NCBI RefSeq assembly: GCF_002831665.1
Contig: NZ_CP025118.1
Coordinates: 434,001 to 498,000 of the forward strand
Direction of reading: 5' to 3'
Source of the DNA: Lacinutrix sp. Bg11-31
GTDB taxonomy: Bacteria; Bacteroidota; Bacteroidia; Flavobacteriales; Flavobacteriaceae
DNA length: 64,000 nucleotides
Position numbers and translations under genes: made by a program. The notes beneath the pieces were generated by a model. That model had not been told where the DNA came from. It made no database searches and was given only the letters and a program-made list of their open reading frames with translations. Within the stretch, counting starts at the first letter, position 1. Each line of letters starts with the position of its first letter. Of the stretch, positions 24,062 to 38,766 are shown piece after piece.

Positions 24062-24091
24062 ACGCAAGTTTTTAATTAGTATTGCATCTAA
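24062..24091 (+). promoter_or_regulatory. ECF promoter motif, site 1 (upstream of its own sigma gene)
   Basis: ACGCAAGTT, 13 bp spacer, GCATCTAA. The gap between CAAG and CATC is 16 bp, the usual distance in ECF promoters between the -35 AAC-type box and the -10 CGTC-type box. The sigma start codon follows after 31 bp. It is one of six sites in the window with identical spacing, which points to autoregulation. Confidence 0.82.
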
Positions 24092-24122
24092 ATACTATTA
24101 GTATAATTTTTAATTCTATTTT

Positions 24123-24701
24123 TTGACAGAAACCGAATTCATAAAACAATTAATAAATAAAAGCCAACTAGCTTATAGTATTCTTTTGGACGATTTTCAA
24201 CAAAAGGTATTTGCTACTTGTATTTCGTTTGTGCCTAATACTGAAGATGCGGAGGATATTGCACAAGAGGTTTTTGTAGAAGTGTTTAATTCTATACATA
24301 AGTTTAAAGGTGATTCTAAATTATCCACTTGGATTTATAGAATAACAACTAATAAATGTTTAGAGTTTATAAGAAAGAAAAATACAAAAAAACGTTTTGC
24401 TTTTTTGCAGTCTATTACAGGAAACGCAATACCAATGGACAAGACGGCATATTTTACAGAGATGAATCATCCCGGAGTTGTACTGGAAAATAAAGAAACA
24501 AGTGAAACTTTATTTTATGCAATTAACCAATTGCCCGAAGCACAGCGTGTTGTTTTTACGCTTAATAAAATAGATGGCAAGAGTTATAAAGAGATAAGTG
24601 AAATTACAAATAAAAGCTTGCCTTCTATAGAATCTTTAATGTTTAGGTCTAAAAAAAGTCTGCAAAAATTGTTAGAAAACTTTTATAAAAATAACAATTA
24701 G
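24123..24701 (+). CDS. ECF RNA polymerase sigma factor (module 1)
   Basis: A 192-residue sigma-70 family protein holding only regions 2 and 4, the ECF layout. Region 2 shows DAEDIAQEVFVEVF and the WIYRITTNKCLEFIR segment that contacts the -10 box. Region 4 shows LPEAQRVVFTLNKIDGKSY and the helix-turn-helix near NKSLPSIESLMFRSKK. The start is TTG at 24123; no ATG lies in frame before the conserved region. A bipartite ECF motif precedes it. The genes for a small single-TM protein and a Spy-like protein follow, so it heads a sigma/putative anti-sigma/sensor module and probably drives the local regulon at 24-36 kb. Confidence 0.92.
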   Translation: MTETEFIKQLINKSQLAYSILLDDFQQKVFATCISFVPNTEDAEDIAQEVFVEVFNSIHKFKGDSKLSTWIYRITTNKCLEFIRKKNTKKRFAFLQSITGNAIPMDKTAYFTEMNHPGVVLENKETSETLFYAINQLPEAQRVVFTLNKIDGKSYKEISEITNKSLPSIESLMFRSKKSLQKLLENFYKNNN

Positions 24702-24730
24702 CGCAAGTTTTTTATAAAACTCGCATCTAA
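24701..24730 (+). promoter_or_regulatory. ECF promoter motif, site 2
   Basis: GCGCAAGTT, 13 bp spacer, GCATCTAA. It begins at the last base of the sigma gene stop codon and ends 12 bp before the start codon of the 105-aa gene, so the predicted transcript has a leader of only a few bases. Confidence 0.82.
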
Positions 24731-24742
24731 TACAATATAGTA

Positions 24743-25060
24743 ATGAATACAAATATGAATATAAAAGATAACGTTAAAAAGACTTTAGAAGTCTTTGATA
24801 CAGTAGAGGTTGTAGAAACGCCTCCTTTTTTTAAGGACAAAACTATGCAGCTTTTATTTGCCGAAAAAGAGAAAACAGTATCTGTATCTATTTGGAGTTG
24901 GTTTACACCACAGTTACAATTAGCAACTTTAGCTTGTATTATTTTTGTTAATGTTTATGCCGTAAAACAAATAAATAGTTCTAAATACGAAGCGTCGATA
25001 ACAAGTTTTGCTTCAGATTATGGAATTACAGCAGATCAAGAATCTTCTATTTTAAATTAA
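24743..25060 (+). CDS. Small single-TM protein, putative anti-sigma factor
   Basis: A 105-residue protein that I cannot match to a named family. It has a charged N-terminus (about 1-50, with the ETPPFFKDKTMQLLF segment), one membrane helix at about residues 55-72 (LQLATLACIIFVNVYAV), and a short outside tail ending in DQESSILN. Size, topology and position directly after an ECF sigma gene resemble membrane anti-sigma factors, and the protein in the same position of module 2 (38218-38694) has the same arrangement. No zinc-binding HxxxCxxC motif is present. Role as anti-sigma factor is inference. Confidence 0.72.
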   Translation: MNTNMNIKDNVKKTLEVFDTVEVVETPPFFKDKTMQLLFAEKEKTVSVSIWSWFTPQLQLATLACIIFVNVYAVKQINSSKYEASITSFASDYGITADQESSILN

Positions 25061-25148
25061 TGATTAAAGAAGTACATTAAAAATATTGCCGCAAATAAAA
25101 ATGATTAATAAAATACATGCGATTATAAAAAAGTAATAAAAAAGACAC

Positions 25149-25625
25149 ATGAAAAAGAATAGCGTTTTATATATTCTCCTTTTAGTATTATTAATAATGA
25201 ATGGTTTTTTCTTATATAACTATTTAGGAAGACCAGAACATAAAAGACCAAAAGAAAATGGTGAATTTATTGTAAAAGCATTAGGGTTAAATGAGACACA
25301 ATTAAAGCAATTTAGGAGTGTAGAAAAAAATCATCACGACAGTATGAAAAATATTGGTGATAATGTTAAGGTTTATAAAGATGAATTGTTTCAAAAAATT
25401 TCAGCTTCAGAAGTTAATCAAGGTGAAATAGATAGCTTAATAAGATTAATTTCGGAAAAAGAAATTTTAAAAGAAAAAGCTATTTTTAATAGGCTTCGAG
25501 GTATTTATAATTTGTGTAATGCAGAACAAAAACAACGTTTTAGTAATATTATAAAAAAAGCACGTAGACCTGATGGACCTGGAGCAGAAGGTCCAAGAGG
25601 AGGAAGACCGAGCAGACCAGAATAG
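25149..25625 (+). CDS. Spy/CpxP-like ECF-associated sensor protein
   Basis: A 158-residue protein with an N-terminal membrane anchor (about 7-24, LYILLLVLLIMNGFFLY) and an all-helical periplasmic part. The pattern KALGLNETQLKQFRSVEKNH matches the LxLTxxQ start of Spy/CpxP/CnrX-type metal-resistance and chaperone proteins; flavobacterial members next to ECF genes are named sensors of ECF-type sigma factors. The last 20 residues are rich in Gly, Pro and Arg (DGPGAEGPRGG). It probably senses envelope stress or metal and signals through the small TM protein upstream. A paralog of identical length sits in module 2 at 37724-38200. Confidence 0.78.
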   Translation: MKKNSVLYILLLVLLIMNGFFLYNYLGRPEHKRPKENGEFIVKALGLNETQLKQFRSVEKNHHDSMKNIGDNVKVYKDELFQKISASEVNQGEIDSLIRLISEKEILKEKAIFNRLRGIYNLCNAEQKQRFSNIIKKARRPDGPGAEGPRGGRPSRPE

Positions 25626-25647
25626 CTATTGTTTACAGTAATATTTT

Positions 25648-25682
25648 AAAAGACCTTTATTTTATATAAAGGTCTTTTTTTT
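25648..25682 (+). terminator. Intrinsic terminator of sigma module 1
   Basis: Stem AAAAGACCTTTAT/ATAAAGGTCTTTT with a 5-nt loop and a long T-run, 23 bp after the Spy-like gene. It separates module 1 from the next ECF-promoted unit. Confidence 0.9.
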
Positions 25683-25704
25683 GTGCTTTATTTAACAAAA
25701 ACAT

Positions 25705-25734
25705 GCACAAGTTATTTATTTAGGTAGCATCTAA
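25705..25734 (+). promoter_or_regulatory. ECF promoter motif, site 3
   Basis: GCACAAGTT, 13 bp spacer, GCATCTAA: one mismatch from the consensus in the upstream box. The start codon of the EF-hand gene follows after 27 bp. The site lies directly behind a terminator, so it must serve a new transcript. Confidence 0.8.
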
Positions 25735-25761
25735 AAGTACATAACAAATAAAATTTAGATT

Positions 25762-26046
25762 ATGAAAAGTAACACATTTAAAACAGCAGTATTAGTTTTT
25801 GGATTAACACTATTAGTCGCTAATAGTTCTTTTGGTCAATCGCAAGACAGGCAAGAGAAAACGCCTCCAACATTTAGTAAACTACTAAAAGAAATGGATA
25901 AAAATGAAGATGGGAAGCTTGCAAAGGCTGAACTTAAAGGTCCGTTAAAAGAAGATTTCTCTAAAATAGATACAGACGAAGATGGTTTTATTTCTGAAAA
26001 AGAATTTAAAAAAGCACCAAAGCCAAAAAGAAAAGAAAGAAAGTAA
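25762..26046 (+). CDS. Secreted EF-hand calcium-binding protein, 94 aa
   Basis: A small exported protein with a signal peptide (ending near SFGQ) and two canonical EF-hand loops, DKNEDGKLAKAE and DTDEDGFISEKE, each with acidic residues at positions 1, 3, 5 and Glu at 12. The end is a basic KPKRKERK tail. Two paired loops form one calcium-binding lobe. It is the first gene after ECF site 3 and is followed after 41 bp by a CotH-kinase gene, so the two are probably co-transcribed. The same EF pair recurs fused to the YHYH protein at 29023. Confidence 0.88.
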   Translation: MKSNTFKTAVLVFGLTLLVANSSFGQSQDRQEKTPPTFSKLLKEMDKNEDGKLAKAELKGPLKEDFSKIDTDEDGFISEKEFKKAPKPKRKERK

Positions 26047-26087
26047 AAAATACTAATTAGCAGTTAAGTAAACCAAAAATAAACAGA

Positions 26088-27542
26088 ATGAAAAGATTAA
26101 AAAGAAACCTAAACCTATTTATAGTAGCAGTAACATTTGGAGCCACTATATTAACATTTAACGCCTGTGCTAGCGATGAAGATATTGCGACTGTAGTTGC
26201 AGAAGAGGAAGCGGCAGAAGAAGCAGACGATAGCGATTTTGTAGCAACAGATTGGACAGCAGAAACACATAGTAAAGATGCAGATCCTAATTTTGATGAA
26301 GTTTTTGAAGACAATGCTGTTAAAAGACTTGACATTGTAATAACAGAAACACGTTGGCAAAGTATGCTGGACGATATGACTAGTTTGTATGGAACGTTTG
26401 GTTCTGTGTCAGGAGGCCCAGGAGGAGGTCCAGGAGGTCCAGGTGAAACAGTATTAGATGAAGAAAATCCAATTTTTGTACCTGGAGAAGTATTTTATAA
26501 TGGTAAAGAATGGTATAGAGTTGGCGTTCGTTTTAAAGGGAATTCAAGTTTAAAAACAAGTTGGGAAAGTGGTATTTTAAAGCTGTCGTTTAAATTGGAT
26601 TTCGATGAGTTTGAAGATGATTATCCACAAATTGATAACCAACGTTTCTATGGCTTTAAAAAGCTAAGTCTTAAAAATAATTTTAACGATAAATCTATGC
26701 TTCGTGAAAAAGTAGCGACAGATGTTTTTAGAAATGCTGGTTTAGTATCTTCTCATGCCGCATTTTATACCGTTTATGTAGATCATGGAAATGGACCTGA
26801 ATATTTTGGGTTATATACTTTAGTTGAAGAAGTGGATGATACTGTTTTAGATGAACAGTTCTTGGACGATAATGGTAATTTATATAAGCCAGATGGAGAT
26901 GCAGCAAGTTTTGCCGCTGGAACTTATAATGAATCTGAATATGTAAAGAAAACAAACGAAGATGAAGATGATTTTTCTGATGTAGAAAGTTTATTATCAA
27001 TTTTACACGACGATACAAGAACTACGGATCCTGTAGCTTGGAGAACAAATCTTGATGCTGTTTTAGATACAGATGTATTTTTGAAATATTTAGCAGTGAA
27101 TACGGTTATTCAAAATTGGGATACTTATGGTAGAATGACACATAATTACTTTTTATATAATAATCCAGATACGAGTAAATTAACTTGGATTCCTTGGGAT
27201 AATAACGAGGCACTTGAAAATGGAAATATGGAAGGTTCTTTACCGTTAGATTTTTCAGGATTAAATGCTAGCGAATGGCCATTAATTGGTTATTTATATC
27301 AAGATTCTGTATATAAATCTCAATACGATACCTATGTTCAAGAAGTTGCTGATGGTGCGTTTAATGTAAGCACAATGCAGTCTACTTATTCTACTTATGC
27401 ATCATTAGTACAGCCGTACGCAATTTCGGAAATTGAAGGTTATACATTTTTAAATAATAGCTCAGATTTTCAAAGCGCAGTAAACGAACTTAATACTCAT
27501 GTTTCAGCAAGAGCAAGTGCCGTAAGTGATTATTTAAATTAA
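26088..27542 (+). CDS. CotH kinase-fold lipoprotein
   Basis: A 484-residue CotH protein. It begins with a lipoprotein signal (TFNAC, Cys27) and an acidic linker, then the CotH domain: RLDIVITETRWQSML, VGVRFKGNSSLK, KKLSLKNNFNDKSMLREKVATDVF (in parts KKLSLKNNF, SMLREKVA), HNYFLYNNPDTSKLTWIPWDNNEAL. Bacillus CotH is an atypical kinase that phosphorylates spore-coat proteins; in Bacteroidota substrates are unknown. A Gly-Pro loop (SGGPGGGPGGPGE) is inserted near residue 110, as in the second CotH gene here. It sits after an EF-hand gene under ECF site 3. Probable location is the outer membrane or surface. Confidence 0.9.
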   Translation: MKRLKRNLNLFIVAVTFGATILTFNACASDEDIATVVAEEEAAEEADDSDFVATDWTAETHSKDADPNFDEVFEDNAVKRLDIVITETRWQSMLDDMTSLYGTFGSVSGGPGGGPGGPGETVLDEENPIFVPGEVFYNGKEWYRVGVRFKGNSSLKTSWESGILKLSFKLDFDEFEDDYPQIDNQRFYGFKKLSLKNNFNDKSMLREKVATDVFRNAGLVSSHAAFYTVYVDHGNGPEYFGLYTLVEEVDDTVLDEQFLDDNGNLYKPDGDAASFAAGTYNESEYVKKTNEDEDDFSDVESLLSILHDDTRTTDPVAWRTNLDAVLDTDVFLKYLAVNTVIQNWDTYGRMTHNYFLYNNPDTSKLTWIPWDNNEALENGNMEGSLPLDFSGLNASEWPLIGYLYQDSVYKSQYDTYVQEVADGAFNVSTMQSTYSTYASLVQPYAISEIEGYTFLNNSSDFQSAVNELNTHVSARASAVSDYLN

Positions 27543-27578
27543 ATTAAATTATTTTTATTAAAATTTTGGTTGGTAGTA

Positions 27579-27616
27579 AAAGGCTCTATAATGTAAAAAT
27601 TATGGAGTTTTTTTTA
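27579..27616 (+). terminator. Intrinsic terminator after CotH gene
   Basis: CTCTATAAT pairs with ATTATGGAG (one G-U), followed by eight T. It closes the EF-hand/CotH unit. Confidence 0.65.
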
Positions 27617-27657
27617 TAAAAAAAGTAATTATGTGTCATTTTAAAGTAATGTAAAGA

Positions 27658-28407
27658 ATGAAGATATTCAGAAAACTTAGAAGAACTTTAATAGCTTCAG
27701 GTAAAACTAAAAGCTACTTAATTTATGCTTTTGGCGAAATCGTTTTAATTGTTATCGGTATTTTAATTGCCTGGAAAATTAATAGCCTAAACGAAATAAG
27801 AAAAAATAAAATTGTAGAACAAAAAATCTATCAAAGTTTAAACGAAGAGTTAGATTCTAATTTAAAAATTCTGGATTCTTCAATATACAGATATTCAGAA
27901 AATGTAAAAACCATTAGTAACACAATAAGAAATGTTGGTTTGCAGCCAGAAGAGATAACAACTCAATTAAAAAAGGATATTGTTTTACTTAACTATAAGC
28001 TAACTCAGTTACATGATGGTGCAATAAACTCTATAAATAGCACAAATAATTTTGAATTTATAGAAAGTGCAGTACTAAAACATTTAATAGCGTCTTACCC
28101 AAACGAGTTAGATAACTTTAATAGTCAAGAAGCTAAAATTGAAAACATTATTACTAACCGTTTAAAACCAGAAATAGAATTGCATGTTTCTTTATTAGAT
28201 ATTGTTTCTAATCGAGACATCGGCTTTAAAACAGCAAACTCTTTTTCGACACAATCTAATTATATTAACCTATTAAATAGCAGAGGCTATCAAAATGCCT
28301 TAGTCGATAGGTTAATACAAACAGAAATGCAATTAGCAAATAGTATTAGTTTAAGAGATAAAACAAAAACTATAGCATCTAAATTAAATGTAGAATTAGG
28401 TATTTAG
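27658..28407 (+). CDS. DUF6090 family membrane protein
   Basis: A 249-residue protein of the DUF6090 type: a short basic N-terminus (MKIFRKLRRTLIASGKT), then the family hallmark YAFGEIVLIVIGILIAWKINSLNE, a single TM helix at residues about 20-42 that flows into a long predicted coiled-coil/helical region. These proteins are frequent in flavobacteria and have no established function. It has no copy of the ECF motif upstream and is separated by terminators from neighbours, so it may be outside the regulon despite lying inside the cluster. Confidence 0.82.
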   Translation: MKIFRKLRRTLIASGKTKSYLIYAFGEIVLIVIGILIAWKINSLNEIRKNKIVEQKIYQSLNEELDSNLKILDSSIYRYSENVKTISNTIRNVGLQPEEITTQLKKDIVLLNYKLTQLHDGAINSINSTNNFEFIESAVLKHLIASYPNELDNFNSQEAKIENIITNRLKPEIELHVSLLDIVSNRDIGFKTANSFSTQSNYINLLNSRGYQNALVDRLIQTEMQLANSISLRDKTKTIASKLNVELGI

Positions 28408-28423
28408 AAAATGTAATAGTCTA

Positions 28424-28453
28424 GCGCAAGTTATTTTTAAATTACACATCTAA
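28424..28453 (+). promoter_or_regulatory. ECF promoter motif, site 4
   Basis: GCGCAAGTT, 13 bp spacer, ACATCTAA: one mismatch in the downstream box. Only 7 bp separate it from the ATG at 28461, so transcription would start at or next to that codon. Either the message is leaderless or the true start is the ATG at 28473. Confidence 0.78.
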
Positions 28454-28460
28454 ATATTAA

Positions 28461-29000
28461 ATGAAAACTAAAATGAAGAACAATAAATTAACATTTACAA
28501 TTTTTACATTACTATTAACTATAGGCTTATACGCACAAGGACCTCCAGGAGGAGGAGGTGGTAGAGGTGGAAAAGGTGGTGGGCAAAGAGGTGGACAACC
28601 GGATGCTTCAGAAATTTTATCAAAATTAGATACTAACAATGACGAGGTTATCGATAAAGATGAAGCTTCAAAAGATACAAGAGGAAAGATTGCTGAAGAT
28701 TTTGACGAGATAGATAGTAATGAAGATTCATTTATTGATCTTCAAGAATTAAAAGATTCTTTAAACAATAGATCAGGAAAAAAGAAACCTAAAAAAGTAT
28801 CTGCCGAGAAAATAATAAAAGAAGTTGATGATAATGGAGACGGCTTATTAAACGAATTAGAAGTTGCTGTAAAAAGAAAGCGAGAATTAACTAAGAATTT
28901 TCAAGAAATCGATACTAATAGTGATAACGAACTAGACCTAGAGGAATTAAAGGTGTTTTATGCTAAAGACGATAAACCAAAACGTAAAAAAAGAGATTAA
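28461..29000 (+). CDS. Secreted four-EF-hand protein with Gly-rich N-terminus
   Basis: A 179-residue exported protein: signal peptide ending near GLYAQ, a Gly/Arg-rich stretch (GGGGGRGGKGGGQRGG) and four EF-hand loops, DTNNDEVIDKDE, DSNEDSFIDLQE, DDNGDGLLNELE and DTNSDNELDLEE. All four keep acidic or Asn ligands at positions 1, 3, 5 and Glu at 12, so they should bind calcium, though position 6 Gly is kept only in the third. A second in-frame ATG at 28473 gives an equally good signal peptide and suits the promoter position better. The YHYH gene follows within 23 bp on the same transcript. Confidence 0.88.
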   Translation: MKTKMKNNKLTFTIFTLLLTIGLYAQGPPGGGGGRGGKGGGQRGGQPDASEILSKLDTNNDEVIDKDEASKDTRGKIAEDFDEIDSNEDSFIDLQELKDSLNNRSGKKKPKKVSAEKIIKEVDDNGDGLLNELEVAVKRKRELTKNFQEIDTNSDNELDLEELKVFYAKDDKPKRKKRD

Positions 29001-29022
29001 TTTTTTTAAAGAACTATTTAAA

Positions 29023-30135
29023 ATGAAAAATAAATTTTCAACAATTATTTTAGTAGCCGTTTTGTTTGGTTGTAATAGCCATAAAAATACTAGCATACAT
29101 ACTCATGATGAAGAGTATCATAGCCATGATGATGAAGCTTCAAATAAAGTGAGTAACTATTTTGCAGCTTATAGTTTAAAAGACGAAAGTTATGATACAA
29201 AAACAGAAGTTACTATTTCAGGTAACGAACGTATTATGATTACAAATTCGTTACCAAATCATGAAACGGGAGCGTTTCCAAATCAAGGCAACCCTAATAC
29301 TATTTCTGCTCAAAATCTAACATATACTTTTCCTTTAAATCCTAAATATACAGGAAATGCACAATGGATGAGAGAACCAGGAGTTGCCTTAAACGGTGTG
29401 AAATTTGAACCAGGAACAGCAGAGGTTGTAGAATGCGAAACAGGAGAGAATTATAGAGTAGAGGCTATACAAAATGTAATAGATTTAGGATTAGATTTTA
29501 ATCATGCACACGTGCAGCCAACAGGAGCATACCATTATCACGGTTCTCCAACGTCTATAATTAGTAAATTTGATACTGGTGAAGATTTAGTACATATAGG
29601 TTTTGCTCACGATGGATTTCCAATGTATTATTCTAAAAGTGGAAAATATAAGCCAAGTTATAAATTGCTAAATGGTAATAGGGATGGAGAAGATTGTACG
29701 TATACAGCACGTAAAACTATAGATATTTCTGTTGGAGGACATCATGATGGAACTTATGGCTCGGATTACGAATATGTTGATAGTTCTGGAGATTTAGATG
29801 AATGTAATGGTATTACAATTGATGGGAAATACATATATTTAGTAACAGAAGAGTTTCCTTATATAAGTCGTTGTGTAATGGGTGAAGTATCACAACAAGA
29901 GCAACAAGGAAGTGCTCAAGGCGGAAGAGGAGAAAGACCAAATACAGCAGAACTTATTAAGCAAATGGATGTTAATAAAGATGGGAAACTATCTAAAACA
30001 GAAGCAAAAGGACCATTAAAACAAGACTTTTCTAAAATAGATACTAATAGCGATGGTTTTATTTCTAAAGAAGAATTAGAAAAAGGAGCAAATGGTAATA
30101 GCAAAAGACCACAAGGCGGAAGAGCTCCAAGATAA
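29023..30135 (+). CDS. YHYH-domain lipoprotein with C-terminal EF-hands
   Basis: A 370-residue protein. I chose the ATG at 29023 because it gives a clean lipoprotein signal (LVAVLFGC, Cys17); a longer reading from 28960 would overlap the preceding gene. A His-rich stretch follows (HTHDEEYHSHDDE), which could bind metal. The YHYH domain spans about residues 60-270 and includes the name-giving GAYHYHGSP and HVQPTGAYHYH region. The C-terminus holds two EF-hand loops, DVNKDGKLSKTE and DTNSDGFISKEE, closely like those of the 94-aa protein at 25762. YHYH function is unknown. This fusion ties the EF-hand and YHYH families of the cluster together. Confidence 0.88.
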   Translation: MKNKFSTIILVAVLFGCNSHKNTSIHTHDEEYHSHDDEASNKVSNYFAAYSLKDESYDTKTEVTISGNERIMITNSLPNHETGAFPNQGNPNTISAQNLTYTFPLNPKYTGNAQWMREPGVALNGVKFEPGTAEVVECETGENYRVEAIQNVIDLGLDFNHAHVQPTGAYHYHGSPTSIISKFDTGEDLVHIGFAHDGFPMYYSKSGKYKPSYKLLNGNRDGEDCTYTARKTIDISVGGHHDGTYGSDYEYVDSSGDLDECNGITIDGKYIYLVTEEFPYISRCVMGEVSQQEQQGSAQGGRGERPNTAELIKQMDVNKDGKLSKTEAKGPLKQDFSKIDTNSDGFISKEELEKGANGNSKRPQGGRAPR

Positions 30136-30156
30136 TTTTTTTTAAAATAAAATAAA

Positions 30157-30186
30157 GCGCAAGTTTTATTTCTAAGTAGCATCTAA
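30157..30186 (+). promoter_or_regulatory. ECF promoter motif, site 5
   Basis: GCGCAAGTT, 13 bp spacer, GCATCTAA: a full consensus copy. The start codon of the YHYH lipoprotein follows after 33 bp. Confidence 0.84.
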
Positions 30187-30219
30187 ATAGAAAACAAACA
30201 AAATAATATACCCTTTTTT

Positions 30220-31047
30220 ATGAAAAACTTTTTTAAAATCACATTGTTTTTTGCTTTAATAGCTATCTCTATAGCTTGTACTAGCGACGACAGTAACTCA
30301 GATTCAGACGGTAGTACTGCTACTACTGCAAATACATTACATGAAGCATTTGCGGATTTTGATGCAAACAACTTAGATATCGTACTTAGTGGTGATAATG
30401 TTGTTATTCAATCTAATGGTATGCCAAATCATACCTCTCCATATTGGTCTAACACAACATCAAGAACAATAACAGGTCCTATGGGTAATACAATGACTAC
30501 GGTTTCAAGTTCAAATCATGTAAATTGGGTAGAGCCAACAGTTACAAGTCACGATCAAATGGCTCCTGGAAATATAGACGATTTTAATGGTTCTTACAGC
30601 CTAACAGTATCTGCAAATCCACAATTAGCATCAAGTTCAAGTACAACAGGACTAGGTCCAATTGGTATTGCAGTATCTGGAGCAATGATTTATAATGACG
30701 AAGAAGGACCAAATATTCCTTTAGACAATGCCGTTGGATCTTTAGATTATACAGCAGCTCACACAGGACCACAAAGTTACCATTACCATTTAGAAACTAA
30801 GGCTTGGTCTGAAGACGATGATGCGTTAATAGGTATAATTGCAGATGGTTTCTTTCTTTACGGAAGAAAATGTAACTCTACAGGAGCATATGCTACAGGT
30901 TTAGATGTTTCAGGTGGACATACAAGTACTACGCAGCATACAACAACAGCAGAGTATCACTATCATATTCAAAACGAATTATATTTAAATTCATATTATA
31001 TTTTATTCCCAGGTGATTATCAAGGAACTCCAAGTAACATTCAGTAA
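30220..31047 (+). CDS. YHYH-domain lipoprotein
   Basis: A 275-residue lipoprotein (signal with ISIAC, Cys20) followed by an acidic Ser/Asp linker and a YHYH domain. The motif GPQSYHYHLETKAW lies near residue 185, with a second histidine cluster HTSTTQHTTTAEYHYHIQ near the C-terminus. It lacks the EF-hands of its paralog at 29023. It is the first gene after ECF site 5 and its 3' end overlaps the next gene by 35 bp, so the YHYH, YwqK-like and SCO genes form a tightly coupled operon. Function unknown; histidine clusters and the SCO partner make a copper link plausible (inference). Confidence 0.88.
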   Translation: MKNFFKITLFFALIAISIACTSDDSNSDSDGSTATTANTLHEAFADFDANNLDIVLSGDNVVIQSNGMPNHTSPYWSNTTSRTITGPMGNTMTTVSSSNHVNWVEPTVTSHDQMAPGNIDDFNGSYSLTVSANPQLASSSSTTGLGPIGIAVSGAMIYNDEEGPNIPLDNAVGSLDYTAAHTGPQSYHYHLETKAWSEDDDALIGIIADGFFLYGRKCNSTGAYATGLDVSGGHTSTTQHTTTAEYHYHIQNELYLNSYYILFPGDYQGTPSNIQ

Positions 31048-31645
31048 GCTATTTTTAGCATTAAGCATTGTCTTATTTTTTTCTTGTAAACACAAGGAAA
31101 AGGATAATAATGCCATAAATAATACTGAGAATAATAGTGTTTTAATAGAAGTATTAAAACCTGAATTAATTTCCAAACCCAACATTGGGCTCATTTATTA
31201 TAACAATGAGCCCTTTTCTGGGATTTCTGTTTTAAATTATCCTAACGGAATTAAGGCTGAAGAAATTTTTTATGTTGAAGGTAAAAGACAAGGAAGTTAT
31301 AAAAAATGGTATCAAGATGAAACCTTAAGTTTTGAATCTTACTACAACAACGGATTGCAACATGGAACAACAAAAAGCTGGTGGAAAGACGGTAGAATTC
31401 GATCTGAAGCAAATCACCTAAACGGAAAAGTTAATGGCGTTCAAAAACAGTGGTATAAAGAAGGCATGTTGTTTAAAGAAATAAATATTGTAAACGGAAA
31501 AGAAGAAGGTTTACAACGCGCTTGGCGTAGAAATGGAAAATTGTATAATAATTATGAGGCAAAAAACGGACGAATTTTTGGCTTAAAAAGAGCAGGATTG
31601 TGTTATGAACTGGAAGAAGAAGTTGTACAAACAAAAAAGTTATAG
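31013..31645 (+). CDS. MORN/YwqK-type repeat lipoprotein
   Basis: A 210-residue protein with a lipoprotein signal (LSIVLFFSC) and five or so repeats of the pattern W-(Y/K)-x-(D/E/N)-G-x-(L/I)-x-x-E, for example KWYQDETLSFES, SWWKDGRIRSEA, QWYKEGMLFKEI and AWRRNGKLYNNY. Database names such as YwqK-family antitoxin derive from these MORN-like repeats; no toxin gene is present here. The only possible start is a GTG at 31013 within the YHYH gene, giving a 35-bp overlap and likely translational coupling. It overlaps the SCO gene by 41 bp. Confidence 0.82.
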   Translation: MIIKELQVTFSKLFLALSIVLFFSCKHKEKDNNAINNTENNSVLIEVLKPELISKPNIGLIYYNNEPFSGISVLNYPNGIKAEEIFYVEGKRQGSYKKWYQDETLSFESYYNNGLQHGTTKSWWKDGRIRSEANHLNGKVNGVQKQWYKEGMLFKEINIVNGKEEGLQRAWRRNGKLYNNYEAKNGRIFGLKRAGLCYELEEEVVQTKKL

Positions 31646-32285
31646 TTTACTGTTTTTAGTTTTCTTATTAATTTTTGCTTGTAACAATAAAACAGAAAAA
31701 ACAAGTAGAGTAGCAAGTTTGCCATTCTATAAAGACGCTACATTTACGCCATATTGGTTAGATGCAGGTAGTGATGAAGCAAAAGAGTTTCATAAAATAC
31801 CAGATTATTCACTAACTAATCAAGAAGGAGTAACAGTAACATCAGAAACGTTTAAAGATAAAATTTATGTAGCAGATTTTTTCTTTACAACCTGTCCAGG
31901 AATTTGCCCGAAAATGACAGCTAACATGTCTATTTTACAAGAAGAATTTAAAGATGATGATGAGATTCTATTATTATCACACTCAGTAACTCCAAAAATA
32001 GATTCTGTTGCAGCTTTAAAAGATTATGCAATTGCTAAAAATGTAAATAGTAGTAAATGGCATTTAGTAACAGGAGAGCGTAAAACAATTTACGATTTAG
32101 GAAGACAAGCTTATTTTGTAGAAGAAGATTTAGGAGAGCCAAAAACAGAAGACGACTTCCTACATACCGAAAACTTTGTGCTTATAGATAAAAACAAACA
32201 TATTCGTGGTATTTATAATGGGCTCAATAAAACTTCTGTACAACAACTTATAGCAGATATAAAGACTTTGAAAAAAGATAACTAA
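31605..32285 (+). CDS. SCO1/SenC family copper lipoprotein
   Basis: A 226-residue protein with lipobox Cys26 (LLIFAC) and a thioredoxin-fold SCO domain. The copper site is complete: Cys97 and Cys101 in FTTCPGICPKM and His187 in FLHTENF. SCO proteins deliver copper to the CuA site of cytochrome oxidase or act as thiol-disulfide reductases. No oxidase gene is nearby; the partners are YHYH and MORN lipoproteins under ECF site 5, so the client may be one of those. A second SCO protein is cut by the right edge of the window at 63643. Confidence 0.92.
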   Translation: MNWKKKLYKQKSYSLLFLVFLLIFACNNKTEKTSRVASLPFYKDATFTPYWLDAGSDEAKEFHKIPDYSLTNQEGVTVTSETFKDKIYVADFFFTTCPGICPKMTANMSILQEEFKDDDEILLLSHSVTPKIDSVAALKDYAIAKNVNSSKWHLVTGERKTIYDLGRQAYFVEEDLGEPKTEDDFLHTENFVLIDKNKHIRGIYNGLNKTSVQQLIADIKTLKKDN

Positions 32286-32308
32286 CTATTTTTTGAATTT
32301 ACTTCCCT

Positions 32309-32337
32309 AAGCTTCACGATTATGTCGTGGAGCTTTT
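32309..32337 (+). terminator. Intrinsic terminator after the SCO gene
   Basis: AGCTTCACGA/TCGTGGAGCT stem with a 5-nt loop and six T. The same hairpin, with small changes, recurs at 36557-36588 because it is the left end of the duplicated segment. Confidence 0.85.
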
Positions 32338-32373
32338 TTACTTTTATAGAAATTAAGAAAATCAAAAGAATAA

Positions 32374-33435
32374 ATGAAAAAGCTTTTAATTACCTTAGGT
32401 ATTGCAGTATCATTATTTTCATGTAAAAAAGATGAAGCAAAAAAAGAAGTTGTTTTTACTCCAAGAAATATTAGCGAAGTAGAGATAGGTGTATTGCTTA
32501 AAGATTCTACTTTAAATGTGAGAGCTATAGAAAAGGTTAAAGGTTATGAGGGATTGTTTTTCTTGACTTCTACAGGTAAGGGAGGAATGATAGGAGAAGA
32601 CGAAATTGTTTTTCCAATTGAAATAGATAATGATAATGAAAAATTAAATTTTAGAGCTTTTGCCAGTACTAATGAGGCTGGTTTTGCTCTATCTGTAGCA
32701 AGTCCTGCTTATTTATATAAAATAGGAGAAAACGAAACTTCAATTGTCTATCAAGAAGACCATGAAAAAGCATTTTACGACGCTATGGCTTTCTGGAACG
32801 ATAAAGAAGGTATTGCTATTGGTGATCCAACAGATAGTTGTTTAAGTATTATTATAACTAGAGATGGTGGAAACACATGGAATAAGCTGTCTTGCGATAC
32901 GTTACCAGAAGCAATAAAAGATGAAGCAGCCTTTGCAGCAAGTGATACTAATATTGCAATTGTAGGAGACGAAACATGGGTAGCAACAGGAGGAGGAGCA
33001 AGCCGTATAATGTATTCTCCAGATAAAGGTGAAACTTGGGAGGTTTTTAATACTCCAATTGTACAAGGTAATGGACCACAAGGTATGTATAGTTTAGATT
33101 TTTACGATAATAAAAACGGATTTGCAATAGGAGGAGATTATACAAAGCCAGCAGACAGTTCTGCAAATAAAATAAGAACTGCAGATGGTGGTAAAACGTG
33201 GCAATTAGTTGCACAAAACCAAAACCCTGGATATAGAAGTTGTGTACAGTATATTCCAGGAAGAGAGGCTAAAGAATTAGTTGCCATTGGTTTTAAAGGT
33301 ATAGACTATTCTAACGATGCTGGAGATTCTTGGAAACATTTAAGCGACGAAGGTTTTTATACACTTCGTTTTGTAAACGACAGTGTTGCTTACGCAGCAG
33401 GAAGCAAGAGGATTGCTAAATTGATTTTTAGGTAA
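32374..33435 (+). CDS. YCF48/BNR-like beta-propeller lipoprotein (intact copy)
   Basis: A 353-residue lipoprotein (signal with LFSCKK) built of Asp-box repeats such as ITRDGGNTWNKL, SPDKGETWEVF, TADGGKTWQLV and SNDAGDSWKHL. The fold resembles the photosystem II assembly factor YCF48, and flavobacterial homologs are often labelled oxidoreductase without evidence. The binding partner is unknown. It has no ECF motif upstream. A second, broken copy lies at 36625-37679; this copy is the only functional one in the window. Confidence 0.86.
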   Translation: MKKLLITLGIAVSLFSCKKDEAKKEVVFTPRNISEVEIGVLLKDSTLNVRAIEKVKGYEGLFFLTSTGKGGMIGEDEIVFPIEIDNDNEKLNFRAFASTNEAGFALSVASPAYLYKIGENETSIVYQEDHEKAFYDAMAFWNDKEGIAIGDPTDSCLSIIITRDGGNTWNKLSCDTLPEAIKDEAAFAASDTNIAIVGDETWVATGGGASRIMYSPDKGETWEVFNTPIVQGNGPQGMYSLDFYDNKNGFAIGGDYTKPADSSANKIRTADGGKTWQLVAQNQNPGYRSCVQYIPGREAKELVAIGFKGIDYSNDAGDSWKHLSDEGFYTLRFVNDSVAYAAGSKRIAKLIFR

Positions 33436-33446
33436 GTATAAAACAT

Positions 33447-33475
33447 AAAAAAAGCGGCCAATGGTTGCTTTTTTT
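33447..33475. terminator. Convergent terminator, left duplicate
   Basis: AAGCGGCC/GGTTGCTT stem with G-U pairs, flanked by A and T runs. An almost identical copy is at 37691-37719. Confidence 0.7.
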
Positions 33476-33479
33476 ATAA

Positions 33480-33761
33480 TTATCTTTTATTTTTTTCTCC
33501 TTTACGCCTGTTTTTAAACTCTTTAATCATTTTATATCTAAATGAACGTTCAGCATTTATTAGTTTAAGTATTTTTTTTGCAGACAATACGCCTTTAAGT
33601 TTACTGATGTAATCAATTTGAAGGTTGCCTTTAATTTCTTCTAATTTAGATGTTTTTTCTAGTAATTCTTTAGGCTCCTTTTCAGTGAATTTAGATTCTG
33701 CAGCTGTTTCGTTTAAATCATCTAAACAATCTTTTCCAGAATTAGAACATTTAAAAGGCAA
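33480..33761 (-). pseudogene. 5'-truncated duplicate of the Spy-like sensor gene
   Basis: The 93-residue frame matches the C-terminal ~85 residues of the intact 158-aa sensor at 37724-38200 (shared segments AAESKFTEKE, ISKLKGVLSAKKILKLINA, SFRYKMIKEFKNR). The first few residues, MPFKCSNSGK, come from unrelated flanking DNA. It lacks signal peptide and the N-terminal half, so it is a dead fragment made by the segmental duplication. Confidence 0.85.
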
Positions 33762-34183
33762 AGAACAAATAGACGCTTTATTTTTTAAATATATTTCTAA
33801 TAATTTGACATTAAAAGAAAGGTTATTAAGCTTTAAAATTAATTTATATTAAAGAAGGTTTAAACGATGGACATTCACATCAAAACAATTTCATTTTTAT
33901 ATTTAAAGGTAGTAGCTATAATGCTGTAAGAAATACAATAATGTTTAATCTTTATCATAATCAAAAGAATTACCATAACATTATATTAAAAGGAGATCAT
34001 CCTGAATACATAACGACTAAAGAAACTGACTCATTTATAATTAATGAGACACAAAATAATTTAAGAAATATTCTACTAAGCATTCTTGTATTGCTGTCTT
34101 TTTGTGTTTTAATAGCACTGTATTGGTTTAAGTTTAAAAAAACAATAAGTTTAACGCAAGTTTTTTTGAAATTCCGCATCTAA
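33736..34183 (+). pseudogene. Remnant of an unidentified membrane-anchored protein gene
   Basis: Directly past the duplication boundary the plus strand reads as protein in two frames: FPELEHLKGKEQIDALFF up to a stop at 33852, then, one frame over, KEGLNDGHSHQNNFIFIF through NTIMFNLYHNQKNYH to a TM helix (NILLSILVLLSFCVLIALYW) and a stop at 34183. It has no start and one frameshift, so it is a gene truncated at its 5' end. Family not recognised; the layout is an exported domain followed by a C-terminal anchor. Its tail overlaps ECF site 6. This accounts for the otherwise gene-free stretch 33762-34209. Confidence 0.6.
34154..34183 (+). promoter_or_regulatory. ECF promoter motif, site 6
   Basis: ACGCAAGTT, 13 bp spacer, GCATCTAA. 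The start codon of the second CotH gene follows after 26 bp. The site is intact although the gene remnant that it overlaps has decayed, which suggests selection on the motif. Confidence 0.82.
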
Positions 34184-34209: not shown

Positions 34210-36534
34210 ATGAAACAACTAATTACTCTAATATTATTTTTACTCGTTTTTGTTAAAACGCATGCTCAAGATTTGTATGATATTAATACAATTCAAACTA
34301 TAGAAATAGTTTTTGCAGAAAGTAATTGGGATGCTTTGTTAGATGCAGAAAAAGCTGCAGATAATAATTATACAGAAGCAACCTCAGTAAGTATTAATGG
34401 AACTATTTACAACCAAGTAGGTGTAAAATATAAAGGAAATAGCTCTTATAATGCTAACCAAACAAAAAACCCATTTCATATAGAATTAGACACTTATGTC
34501 GACCAAGATCATCAAGGTTATAAAGATATAAAATTAGCGAATGTAATGTTCGATCCCTCTTTTGTTCGAGAAACTGTAGCTTATAATATTGTAAACCAAT
34601 ATATGGATGCTCCTCAAGCAAATTATGCAAATGTGTATGTAAACGGAATTTTAATAGGTTTATATACTAATACAGAAGCTATAACCAAAACCTTTGTAAA
34701 CAAGCATTTTAACTCTAACGATAATGCTTTTTTTAGCTGTAGTCCTCCAGATGGAGCAGGACCACAATCTACTAATTTTCCTAATTTAGCTTATTTAGGA
34801 ACTAATAGTTTTAGTTATGATGATGCTTATGAGATTAAGTCTGATGATGAAACTGATGCGACAATTGCTGTAGCACATTGGGATAATTTAATAGAATTAA
34901 CTAATGCTTTAGAGAGTGATATTACAAATATTGAAGCGGTTTTAGATGTAGATATGGCTATTTGGATGCTAGCTTTCGATAATGTCATGGTTAATTTAGA
35001 TAGTTACATTGGGCAATTTAAGCAAAACTACTATTTATATAAAGACGATAATGGTCGTTTTAAATCTATAGTTTGGGATTTAAATATGTCTTTTGGAACA
35101 TTTGGTCAAACTGGAGCAAGTGGAGGAGGACCTGGAGGAGGTGGAGGAGGAAATGGAAGTTTAAACTCTACTACAGATAAAGCACAGCTAGATCATTTAT
35201 TACATGATACAGATGCTAATTTTCCTTTACTATCTAAGCTTTTAGCAGTACCTACATATAAGAAGAAATATTTAGCACACTATAAAACTATTTTAACAGA
35301 GAATATCAGTAACTCTAGCTACTTAACATTAGCAAACGATTACCAAGCACTTATTACAACAGCTGTAACAGCAGATACAAATAAGTTTTATACTGACGCT
35401 CAATTTACGGGTAATATAAACACAGATTATAGTTTAGGAATGAATACTGCTTCGGGACTTACAAACTTAATGTCTGCTAGAAGTACATATTTATTATCAC
35501 AAATAGATTTTACAAATACGCAACCTAATATAACAGGAACTGTATCATCTACTACAACTCCAACAATAGGAGATACAGTAACAATAACAAGTACAGTTAT
35601 AGATACTAACACAGACGCAGTGTATTTCGGTTATAGAACAGATGAAACATTGCCATTCACTAGAATATTAATGTATGATGATGGAAATCACAATGATAGT
35701 GGATCTGGAGACGACATTTATGGTGTAGATGTTATTGTAGATACTGACTATATGCAATATTATATTTATGCAGAAAATAATAATATTGGTGCGTTTTCAC
35801 CAGCTAGAGCAGAGTACGAGTTTTATACAATTAATGCTACTTACACTACATTAACTGTAGGAGATTTAGTTATTAACGAAATTATGGCTGATAATGGAAC
35901 AACTATAGCAGATCAAGATGGAGAGTTCGACGATTGGATAGAGCTTTATAATAACTCATCTCAAACGCTTAGTTTAGATAATTTATACTTATCAGATGAT
36001 TCTACAGATCCGTTAGTATGGGAATTCCCTACAGGAACTACAATTGCACCAGATAGTTATTTAATTGTTTGGTGTGATAAAGATGAGGAACAAGTAGGTT
36101 TACATGCCGATTTAAAATTTTCTTCTGGAGGAGAAGAGGCTGTCTTATCTTATGCAGATGGTACTGTTATTGAAAGCATAACTTTTGGAGCGCAAACAGA
36201 AGATATGGGTTATGCAAGAATACCTAACGGAATTGGGAATTTTGTAATTCAAGCACCAACATATAATGGTAATAACGAATCGTTATCGGTTGATGATTTT
36301 AATTTACATAATTATTTAAAAGTTTTTCCAAATCCAACAAATGGGTTGTTAACTATTAAGAATTCGAATGTTTCAATTAATACAGTAGCTGTTTATAATA
36401 CTATTGGTCAGTTATTATATAAAAACAATTACTCAAATAGTAATCAAATAGAGTTAGACTTTTCTACGTACTCAAAAGGTATTTATATGGTTAATATTAA
36501 TAACACAACAACTTTAAAAATTGTAAGAGATTAA
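34210..36534 (+). CDS. CotH kinase + lamin-tail domain + T9SS sorting tail
   Basis: A 774-residue surface protein. Signal peptide to about residue 20 (THAQ). The CotH domain covers about residues 25-440, with VGVKYKGNSSYN, KLANVMFDPSFVRE, QNYYLYKDDNGRFKSIVWDLN and a Gly-rich loop (GASGGGPGGGGGGNG) near residue 305. A beta-sandwich linker (about 440-545) is followed by a lamin-tail domain at about 550-665 (VINEIMADN, DDWIELYNNSS, LYLSDD) and a T9SS type A tail (LKVFPNPTNGLLTIKN to LKIVRD). It is probably secreted and held at the cell surface. It stands alone between the two copies of the duplicated segment, under ECF site 6. Confidence 0.93.
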   Translation: MKQLITLILFLLVFVKTHAQDLYDINTIQTIEIVFAESNWDALLDAEKAADNNYTEATSVSINGTIYNQVGVKYKGNSSYNANQTKNPFHIELDTYVDQDHQGYKDIKLANVMFDPSFVRETVAYNIVNQYMDAPQANYANVYVNGILIGLYTNTEAITKTFVNKHFNSNDNAFFSCSPPDGAGPQSTNFPNLAYLGTNSFSYDDAYEIKSDDETDATIAVAHWDNLIELTNALESDITNIEAVLDVDMAIWMLAFDNVMVNLDSYIGQFKQNYYLYKDDNGRFKSIVWDLNMSFGTFGQTGASGGGPGGGGGGNGSLNSTTDKAQLDHLLHDTDANFPLLSKLLAVPTYKKKYLAHYKTILTENISNSSYLTLANDYQALITTAVTADTNKFYTDAQFTGNINTDYSLGMNTASGLTNLMSARSTYLLSQIDFTNTQPNITGTVSSTTTPTIGDTVTITSTVIDTNTDAVYFGYRTDETLPFTRILMYDDGNHNDSGSGDDIYGVDVIVDTDYMQYYIYAENNNIGAFSPARAEYEFYTINATYTTLTVGDLVINEIMADNGTTIADQDGEFDDWIELYNNSSQTLSLDNLYLSDDSTDPLVWEFPTGTTIAPDSYLIVWCDKDEEQVGLHADLKFSSGGEEAVLSYADGTVIESITFGAQTEDMGYARIPNGIGNFVIQAPTYNGNNESLSVDDFNLHNYLKVFPNPTNGLLTIKNSNVSINTVAVYNTIGQLLYKNNYSNSNQIELDFSTYSKGIYMVNINNTTTLKIVRD

Positions 36535-36556: not shown

Positions 36557-36588
36557 AAAAGCTCCACGATTATGTCGTGGAGCTTTTT
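36557..36588 (+). terminator. Intrinsic terminator after second CotH gene
   Basis: AAAGCTCCACGA/TCGTGGAGCTTT, perfect 10-bp core, with a T-run. It is the right-hand copy of the hairpin at 32309-32337. Confidence 0.88.
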
Positions 36589-36624
36589 TTATTTTTATAG
36601 AAATTAAGAAAATCAAAAGAACAA

Positions 36625-37679
36625 ATGAAAAAGCTTTTAATTACCTTAGGTATTGCAGTATCATTATTTTCATGTAAAAAATAGGAAGCAAAAAAAGAAA
36701 CTATTTTTATTCCTAGAGATATTAGCGAAATAGAAATAAGTGTGTTACTTAAAGATTCTACCTTAAAGGTTAGAGCTATAGAAATACTTAAAGATTATGA
36801 GTGATTATTTTTCTTGACTTCTACCGGAAAAGGAGGAATGATAGGAGAAGACGAAATTGTTTTTCCAATTGAGATAGATAGTGAGAATTAAATCTCAGAG
36901 CTTTTGCTACTACTAATGAAGCGGGTTTTGCTTTATCTGTAGAAAGTCCAGCATGTTTATATAAAATAGGAGAAAACTAAACGTCAATAGTTTACCAAGA
37001 AGACCACGAAAAAGCATTCTATGATGCTATGGGTTTCTGGAACGATAAAGAAGGTGTTGCCATTGGTAATCCAACAGATGGTTGTTTAAGTGTTATTGTA
37101 ACTAGAGATGGTGGAAACACATGGAGTAAATTGTCATGTGATGTGTTACCAGAAGCAATAAAAGACGAAGCAGCCTTTGCTGCAAGCGATACTAATATTG
37201 CAATTGTAGGCGACGAAACTTGGGTAGCAACAGGAGGAGGAGCAAGCCGCATAATGTATTCTCCCGATAAAGGTGAAACTTGGGAGGTTTTTAATACTCC
37301 AATTGTACAAGGTAATGGACCACAAGGGATGTATAGTTTAGATTTTTACGATAATAAAAACGGATTTGCAATAGGAGGAGATTATACAAAGCCAGCAGAC
37401 AGTTCTGCTAATAAAATAAGAACTGCAGATGGTGGTAAAACGTGGCAATTAGTTGCACAAAACCAAAACCCTGGATATAGAAGTTGTGTACAGTATATTC
37501 CTGGTAGCGCGGCAAAAGAATTAGTTGCCATTGGTTTTAAGGGTATAGATTATTCTAACAATGCAGGAGAATCATGGAAACATATAAGCGACGAAGGTTT
37601 TTATACACTTTGTTTTGTAAACGACAGTGTTGCTTACGCAGCAGGAAGCAAGAGGATTGCTAAATTGATTTTTAGGTAA
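36625..37679 (+). pseudogene. Broken copy of the YCF48-like lipoprotein gene
   Basis: The start and the first 19 codons are identical to the intact gene at 32374. Then TAG at 36682 replaces an Asp codon, TGA at 36802 replaces a Gly codon, a deletion near 36890 shifts the frame, and TAA follows at 36978. From 37029 to the stop at 37679 the frame is open (216 residues) and nearly identical to the intact copy. That open frame lacks the signal and N-terminal blades, so I treat the whole as a pseudogene. Confidence 0.9.
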
Positions 37680-37723: not shown

Positions 37724-38200
37724 TTATCTTTTATTTTTTTCTCCTTTATGCCTGTTTTTAAACTCTTTAATCATTTTATATCTAAATGAACGTTCAGCAT
37801 TTATTAGTTTAAGTATTTTTTTTGCAGGCAATACGTCTTTAAGTTTACTGATGTAATCAATCTGAAGGTTGCATTTATTTTCTTCTAATTTAGATATTTT
37901 TTCTAGTAATTCTTTAGACTCCTTTTCAGTGAATTTAGATTCTGCTGCTGTTTGGTTTAAATCGTATAAACAATCTTTTACTTTATTATCTCTAAGTCTA
38001 TAACGTGCCTCTTCATTAGCATTATAAATTGGCCAAAAAGCTTGAGCTTCTTTAGTTGTTAGGTCTAATTGTTCTGTAATATGTGCTACTTTTAAAGCTT
38101 TTATTTTTTCTTTATTAGGTTTTTGTGCATGTATGCTTACCGATAGAAGCAAAGAAAAAACTGGGATGAGTATTGTTTTTATTGTTTTTATTGTTTTCAT
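37724..38200 (-). CDS. Spy/CpxP-like ECF-associated sensor protein (module 2)
   Basis: A 158-residue exported helical protein: signal peptide ending near SIHAQ, then HITEQLDLTTKEAQAFWPIYN, the LTxxQ/E-A-x-x-F-W pattern of Spy/CpxP-like proteins (quoted in part: LDLTTKEAQAFWPIYN), and a basic C-terminus (KNRHKGEKNKR). It has the same length and module position as the protein at 25149 but low sequence identity. It probably senses envelope stress or metal for the sigma factor at 38767. Its 3' part is duplicated at 33480. The preceding gene ends 17 bp away, so the module is one operon. Confidence 0.8.
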   Translation of the reverse strand: MKTIKTIKTILIPVFSLLLSVSIHAQKPNKEKIKALKVAHITEQLDLTTKEAQAFWPIYNANEEARYRLRDNKVKDCLYDLNQTAAESKFTEKESKELLEKISKLEENKCNLQIDYISKLKDVLPAKKILKLINAERSFRYKMIKEFKNRHKGEKNKR

Positions 38201-38217
38201 TTTTTGTTTATATTTTT

Positions 38218-38694
38218 TTATTCTGAATATAAGTCGTTAACATCAATATTCTCTAGATATCCATCTAATGCTTCGTCACTTATAGTGTAATCTATAAAAT
38301 TTGTTTCGCTTAACTCGCTATCTTGAAATAGAGAAAACAGGTCTCCTGTTTCAGTTTCATTAATTATATAGTTGTCTACCGTTGTTATATCTAAATCGTT
38401 AAATGATAAAGGTGAATTATCAAAAATATTTAAGCTGAAGAATAATACTAAAGCAGCTGCAATGCTTGAAACAAGAAACATATTCTTTTTAGAGAAAATA
38501 GAAATAACTTTAGTTTCTTTTTTAATTGAAACATTAAAGTTTTCTAGATAACCTTCTGGTGTTTTAAAACCAGAAGAGCTAACTAAACTTTTAAGTTTTG
38601 TTTCTGCTAAAATAGAATCTTCAAGTGCTTCAAAATAACCTTGAGGAACTTTAAAACCTGGATTTTTAACGTTATGTGAGTTTTCGTTTTTCAT
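38218..38694 (-). CDS. Single-TM protein, putative anti-sigma factor (module 2)
   Basis: A 158-residue protein with two copies of a G-F-K-x-P-x-G-Y-(F/L)-E motif in the cytoplasmic N-terminus (NPGFKVPQGYFEAL and SSGFKTPEGYLENF). A TM helix follows at about 70-88 (MFLVSSIAAALVLFFSL), then an acidic outside tail. This repeat motif is common in flavobacterial proteins encoded right after ECF sigma genes. No enzymatic or zinc motif is visible. Position between the sigma and sensor genes makes an anti-sigma role likely, but this is inference. Confidence 0.75.
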   Translation of the reverse strand: MKNENSHNVKNPGFKVPQGYFEALEDSILAETKLKSLVSSSGFKTPEGYLENFNVSIKKETKVISIFSKKNMFLVSSIAAALVLFFSLNIFDNSPLSFNDLDITTVDNYIINETETGDLFSLFQDSELSETNFIDYTISDEALDGYLENIDVNDLYSE

Positions 38695-38766
38695 GTTTAC
38701 TTTCCGATATATTGGAAACCTTTATCGTCGTTTATTACTATTAAGACTCTATAATTATTAAATAGT

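Follow-up and report, generated by a model that had tools for sequence, protein, structure and literature searches.

Regulatory systems that combine an extracytoplasmic function (ECF) sigma factor, an anti-sigma factor, and autoregulated promoters are of a well-known kind. The genes of SigW and RpoE adjoin those of their regulators, the anti-sigma factors, and ECF promoters carry -35 and -10 elements at a fixed spacing, with a CGTC- or CATC-like downstream box. In the available sections of two studies, the SM6 promoters of Flavobacterium psychrophilum are described as ECF-type promoters with a CGT box and type IX secretion system (T9SS) targets (PMC9723704), and the ECF regulons of Bacteroides thetaiotaomicron have TGTT-type promoters, not the CAAG-N16-CATC motif considered here (PMC12596196). 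We analyzed a 64,000-nucleotide stretch of the 3.665-Mb genome of Lacinutrix sp. Bg11-31 (C1:434001-498000; hereafter, the window), in which an ECF sigma gene is followed by genes for EF-hand, CotH, YHYH, MORN-repeat, and SCO1/SenC-family proteins and is accompanied by six copies of that motif. Judging from the sequences, we put the probability at about 0.88 that the six sites are promoters of one ECF regulon, which would be read by this sigma factor and would include feedback wiring.

The protein carries sigma regions 2 and 4, as expected for an ECF sigma factor (sigma-70 group IV), and scores 93 bits against the superfamily model TIGR02937 (cut-off 42.9). Its closest solved sequences are SigW (E = 1.9e-28), RpoE (4.4e-28), and sigma-H (also approximately 1e-28), whereas CnrH of the CnrH-CnrY-CnrX system of Cupriavidus metallidurans gives only 1.7e-10; the Cnr gene order also differs from the order at this locus, and no efflux gene was recognised among the annotated targets here. 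Like the SigW and RpoE genes, the sigma gene probably adjoins that of its regulator, with the differences that a separate promoter between the sigma and putative anti-sigma genes is the most conserved one of the set and that the putative anti-sigma has no recognised anti-sigma domain. With SM6, in the sections of PMC9723704 available, the system shares an ECF-type promoter set in Flavobacteriaceae and a sigma/anti-sigma pair among the targets; it differs in its CATCTAA box and in having no T9SS component among the Pfam-annotated targets. Neither a CATCTAA class nor a YHYH/CotH regulon appears in those sections of the SM6 description, and the open-licence literature yielded no paper combining YHYH, CotH, and sigma and nothing on point for the regulon. 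The statement in the first-pass annotation of this DNA that no ECF group with this promoter and regulon was known to have been described agrees with that body of literature, which did not extend to the ECF classification; as far as it reaches, the promoter, the target set, and the emphasis on feedback appear undescribed.

Six matches to RCGCAAGTT-N13-GCATCTAA with at most one mismatch lie in the window, all on the plus strand, with 0, 0, 1, 1, 0, and 0 mismatches at sites 1 to 6, respectively; the single mismatch falls in the upstream box at site 3 and in the downstream box at site 4. Positions, strand, and mismatch placement are exactly those that the first-pass annotation had reported. At up to three mismatches, the chance expectation for the window is 0.26, and the largest number found in 100 dinucleotide shuffles was two, none reaching six. 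The motif is not scattered over the genome, as random matches would have been: no match with one mismatch or fewer occurs outside the cluster anywhere in the 3.665 Mb, so that, as far as the motif shows, the regulon in this genome is the cluster. The whole-genome scan at up to three mismatches returned 25 matches (6 at 0 or 1, 3 at 2, and 16 at 3 mismatches), compared with 3 for the reversed control pattern. All three of the 2-mismatch matches and 2 of the 16 at 3 mismatches belong to another promoter class, of the ACGCAACCTTT type; among the other 14, 11 fall entirely within open reading frames (ORFs) of at least 80 codons.

The distances from the motif to the next start codon are 31 (the TTG of the sigma gene), 12, 27, 7, 33, and 26 nt for sites 1 to 6, and site 2 shares one base with the sigma stop codon, its last (TAG-CGCAAGTT). 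The DUF6090, MORN, and SCO genes of the window have no site of their own and lie downstream of genes that do. A conserved, bipartite motif upstream of operons might be the operator of a DNA-binding regulator, with the transcripts made by the housekeeping sigma factor. We regard this as extremely unlikely: the motif is not palindromic, the gaps of 7-33 nt at all six sites can hardly accommodate a separate promoter, and the fixed N16 with a CGTC/CATC downstream box matches the -35/-10 form of ECF promoters.

The motif tracks this particular sigma gene. Orthologs with 64-99% identity were found in 25 of 199 genomes of the family (own genome included), the nearest named relative being that of Lacinutrix mariniflava (92%); below them, matches drop to 51% and then 38% identity. 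The exact core GCAAGTT-N14-CATCTAA is present in 21 of the 199 genomes, namely in 20 of the 25 with an ortholog and in 1 of the 174 lacking one (Fisher p = 7e-22, uncorrected for kinship), with 47 matches overall and 6 matches in 6 genomes for the reversed control. A control pattern whose spacing was accidentally off by one base gave 19 matches, versus 26 for the reversed form. Sigma matches at E ≤ 1e-20 occur in 111 of the 199 genomes, and the motif does not follow ECF genes generally, represented by the 86 genomes with a weaker sigma match. The five ortholog genomes lacking the exact core have sites at the sigma locus within 1-3 mismatches of the longer pattern, and conservation at orthologous sigma loci, proposed in the first-pass annotation as a check, was found in all 25 family orthologs (at least one site with three mismatches or fewer).

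By manual count, 42 of the 47 exact-core matches lie inside the sigma cluster. The others precede a sulfatase gene (L304), a di-haem MauG-type peroxidase gene (L090), and a 727-aa ORF (L305), fall within a coding frame (L087), or, in the genome without an ortholog (L089), are followed only by an 81-codon ORF approximately 310 bp downstream. Sulfatase genes are present in the sigma clusters of L058 and L060, and MauG-type peroxidase genes stand downstream of a 2- or 3-mismatch site in those of L076, L077, and L078; the L304 sulfatase and the L090 peroxidase therefore look like real regulon members.

The spacing is rigid. Exact CAAG-N(k)-C(A/G)TC was counted for k = 10-22 at 26 family loci (the 25 orthologs and L080, a 51% homologue; L081, at 38%, was excluded), 80 named loci, and 38 loci from across the phylum. 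After the sigma stop codon, only k = 16 is enriched (24/26 family, 73/80 named, and 13/38 phylum loci), all other values giving 0-2 loci and shuffles 0.02-0.1. Upstream of the sigma gene, N16 was found at 10/26, 27/80, and 8/38 loci, and other spacings at 0-2 loci, except N15 at 6/80; four of the five N15 matches listed (L175, L181, L184, and L191) correspond, by eye, to one and the same small ORF nearby, on its reverse strand. Within the 80 named loci (1.50 Mb), 185 matches with up to two mismatches were found, compared with none in one shuffle per locus; 174 lie within clusters and 180 on the sigma strand, 6 fall inside an ORF, and for 9 no ORF starts on the same strand within 400 bp.

First genes of transcription units tend to have a site, and inner genes rarely do. 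With up to three mismatches and within 250 bp upstream, sites in the named loci precede the anti-sigma gene in 65/69 cases, EF1 in 33/41, EF2 in 8/14, YHYH2 in 40/66, YHYH1 in 12/29, CotH1 in 7/23, CotH2 in 2/31, and sigma in 28/80, compared with 1/75 for SPY, 0/64 for MORN, 1/64 for SCO, 0/10 for DUF6090, and 1/37 for YCF48 (labels as in Table 1). The YHYH2-MORN-SCO operon, mostly with EF1, is divergent from the sigma gene in loci of Flagellimonas, Allomuricauda, and Ulvibacterium, and in five of them (L171, L178, L186, L195, and L197) a reversed site faces the divergent operon; CAAG-N16-CRTC is found on the reverse strand upstream of sigma at 7/80 named loci. In L169, L182, L187, and L079, the effector genes are inverted and no reversed site was found at up to two mismatches. 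Motif, spacing, co-occurrence with the sigma gene, operon logic, and conservation are all observed directly, and the earlier proposal that the sites are ECF -35/-10 promoters read by this sigma factor gains support from the rigid N16, the sigma co-occurrence, and the placement before first genes.

The most conserved site is the one abutting the sigma stop codon, and the one preceding the sigma gene is optional. The first-pass annotation had argued for autoregulation from the latter. Site 1 is indeed present, yet this position is the less conserved (27/80 versus 73/80 named loci), and the emphasis on it missed the best-conserved site, which lies in front of the putative anti-sigma and Spy/CnrX-like genes. 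The short protein has a single hydrophobic stretch (approximately residues 58-74, by eye), no significant match in Pfam or NCBIfam, and no match among PDB sequences up to an E of 10; its candidate role as the anti-sigma factor is drawn from position and conservation. In the Spy/CnrX-like protein, H62 is invariant and C123 nearly invariant among 34 sequences. The TTG start of the sigma gene is kept in 69 of 74 named loci and may hold sigma translation low.

Upstream boxes were compared at the 74 of 80 named loci that met the filters (at least 130 nt upstream and >60% identity), and site 1 is absent from 47 of them. A housekeeping -7 box, TAnnTTTG, was considered as its replacement and rejected (1/47 loci without site 1 versus 5/27 with it). 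In a second look after that failure, among loci that are related, a TAnnTTGY box was found at 25/47 loci without site 1 versus 3/27 with it, and at 23/563 positions upstream of other ORFs; TAnnTTGY is motif SM5 in the available part of PMC9723704.

Sigma homologues at E ≤ 1e-35 were found in 126 of 395 genomes in a phylum-wide search. Wide regions were taken for 40 of the 126, hand-picked for spread over genera, and 38 could be scored, no sigma ORF having been called in L283 and L284. At these loci, 11-12 of the 12 core positions match in 8 segments upstream and 11 downstream and in no shuffle; the core was chosen after some of the scored sequences had been viewed. Exact CAAG-N16-CRTC occurs at 16 loci (14 CGTC and 2 CATC) and at neither place in 22 of the 38, indicating frequent loss or drift among relatives this remote. 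The site is retained after the stop codon in L198 (0 mismatches), L200, and L202, where sigma identity is 48-50%; three Niabella loci in the same identity range have no site there. In some distant Bacteroidota, a related promoter, mostly CAAG-N16-CGTC, goes with the sigma gene. Of the 40 loci, 32 show, by manual reading, a sigma gene followed by a short gene and an SPY-like gene. Outside the family, L296 has the YHYH2-MORN-SCO triad, and in L287 the motif precedes a CotH gene followed by one other ORF and then VTC and DUF4956 genes. When sigma residues were compared between loci of the two -10 types (CATC and CGTC), many columns differed, but kinship confounds the comparison and nothing is claimed from it.

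A second promoter class, CGCAACCTTT-N12-CATCTA, has six sites at one mismatch or fewer in the Lacinutrix genome. It shares the -10 element and overall spacing with the CAAGTT class and differs in its -35 element (CAACCT) and its target genes. Two of its sites lie on either side of an ORF that was judged RecA-like by eye, and one precedes a small ORF and then a different ECF sigma gene. A further ECF gene lies just beyond the cluster (38770-39309), together with two small ORFs (37724-39309, minus strand), and an ECF gene arranged in the same way comes after the cluster in at least 30 of the 80 named loci (manual count). With several ECF genes in one genome and two classes sharing a -10, another ECF sigma factor might read the six sites, the local sigma gene being merely one target. 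This is very unlikely in our estimation, given that the CAAGTT class tracks the ortholog of the local sigma gene and stays with it even at 48% sigma identity (L200 and L202), whereas the CAACCT class is exact in 88 of the 199 family genomes (zero control matches), far above the 25 that carry this type of sigma. The CAACCT class is likely to be read by another ECF sigma factor, and recognition of the six CAAGTT sites by the local one remains our preferred reading.

The genes downstream of the sites encode mostly proteins that are exported or lipoprotein-like by their N-termini as judged by eye (EF-hand, CotH, YHYH, MORN, and SCO1/SenC; Table 1). The true start of YHYH1 is probably the Met codon at 29023. 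YHYH2 has invariant His/Tyr positions across 28 sequences; its predicted structure gave no usable fold (mean predicted local distance difference test score 50.5), and no PDB sequence relative was found (best E = 0.29). The YHYH2-MORN-SCO operon possibly extends to the YCF48-like gene as its last member. A direct repeat, 88-90% identical (32334-32941 and 36585-37185), covers the start of the YCF48-like gene and flanks the second CotH gene with site 6, which suggests duplication.

Table 1. Sites and genes of the predicted ECF regulon in the window, with second-class promoters
Feature	Coordinates	Strand	Evidence
Site 1, CAAG-N16-CATC, upstream of sigma gene	24062..24091	+	motif match
ECF sigma factor, 192 aa, TTG start	24123..24701	+	Sigma70_r2 1.2e-16, Sigma70_r4_2 1.2e-14 (Pfam)
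Site 2, abuts sigma stop codon, before anti-sigma/Spy-like pair	24701..24730	+	motif match
Putative anti-sigma factor, 105 aa	24743..25060	+	position and conservation (alignment)
Spy/CnrX-like protein (SPY), N-terminal hydrophobic helix, 158 aa	25149..25625	+	
Site 3	25705..25734	+	motif match
EF-hand protein (EF1), probably exported	25762..26046	+	EF-hand_1 3.1e-10
CotH-kinase protein (CotH1), lipoprotein-like N-terminus	26088..27542	+	CotH 1.2e-71
DUF6090-like protein	27658..28407	+	DUF6090 4e-04, under cut-off
Site 4	28424..28453	+	motif match
EF-hand protein (EF2), probably exported	28461..29000	+	EF-hand_7 7.5e-15
YHYH + EF-hand protein (YHYH1)	28960..30135	+	YHYH 3.7e-54, EF-hand_5 1.2e-12
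Site 5	30157..30186	+	motif match
YHYH protein (YHYH2), lipoprotein-like N-terminus	30220..31047	+	YHYH 1.5e-10
MORN-repeat protein, start uncertain	31013..31645	+	MORN_2 7e-07, just under cut-off
SCO1/SenC-family protein	31605..32285	+	SCO1-SenC 1.7e-24
YCF48-like protein	32374..33435	+	PSII_BNR 4.2e-11
Site 6	34154..34183	+	motif match
CotH kinase (CotH2), lamin-tail domain, T9SS sorting tail	34210..36534	+	CotH 5.1e-46, LTD 1.8e-18, Por_Secre_tail 3.7e-12
Second-class sites, own genome	C1:117286, 1081068, 1635730, 2761821(-), 2762992, 2955179(-)		
Second-class promoter locus also listed	L022:1501-2551		

In relatives, the predicted regulon has added members: MauG-type peroxidases (L076, L077, L078, L090, and L297), sulfatases, an arylsulfotransferase-like protein, and VTC, DUF4956, and DUF2490 proteins with CotH, some of them, not all, with a site directly in front. 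At L063:4621-6717 and L287:8311-12331, CotH genes lie near those for VTC and DUF4956 (in L063 also DUF2490), with regulon sites nearby. At L297:8219-11323 (minus strand), from another family of the order, the sigma gene, the short gene, and the SPY-like gene are followed by genes for MbnP, a di-haem MauG-type peroxidase, and YHYH.

From this organization we infer direct promoter recognition by the sigma factor, the anti-sigma role, the direction of signalling, and the kind of signal. A signal from the periplasm or the cell surface, possibly a metal or a redox condition, would reach the Spy/CnrX-like protein; the small putative membrane anti-sigma factor would then free the sigma factor, which would transcribe the EF-hand, CotH, YHYH, and MORN-SCO operons and, in this genome, also its own gene from site 1. 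The promoter abutting the sigma stop codon would yield more anti-sigma factor and sensor, so that the response would limit itself through built-in negative feedback. A metal or redox signal is a tentative choice. In the available sections of the sources, YHYH domains are predicted to bind zinc and to be hydrolases (PMC7824862), MbnP/MbnH pairs adjoin methanobactin operons, and no data linked close MbnP/MbnH homologues to copper as of 2013 (PMC3621798); a metal or redox signal is therefore best taken as a lead. Envelope protein stress, in keeping with a Spy/CpxP-like sensor, might instead be the signal of the same regulon, a doubtful alternative. It is also conceivable, if unlikely in its entirety, that the module of ECF sigma factor, short anti-sigma factor, and Spy/CnrX-like protein, widespread in Bacteroidota, responds to an oxidant or a metal, perhaps copper, in the periplasm or at the surface and controls a surface metal-handling set of YHYH, SCO, MauG/MbnP, EF-hand, CotH, and VTC proteins, most of them of unknown function. 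On this reading, the obligatory promoter would make the system's own inhibitor, and the module would act primarily as a homeostat, with autoactivation confined to certain lineages.

Few mapped ECF promoters were found for Bacteroidota, and the locus provides a sharply predicted one, with a target list, for a flavobacterial sigma group that has homologues elsewhere in the phylum. Two promoter classes that share a -10 element and differ in the -35 within one genome lend themselves to asking how ECF specificities are kept apart. Protein families whose function is unknown or poorly known (YHYH, MORN-SCO, CotH with VTC/DUF4956, and EF-hand) are tied to one switch and would thus be assignable together by one deletion and one RNA sequencing experiment, and, because relatives also combine this switch with this sigma factor, these poorly understood surface proteins become testable as one regulon.

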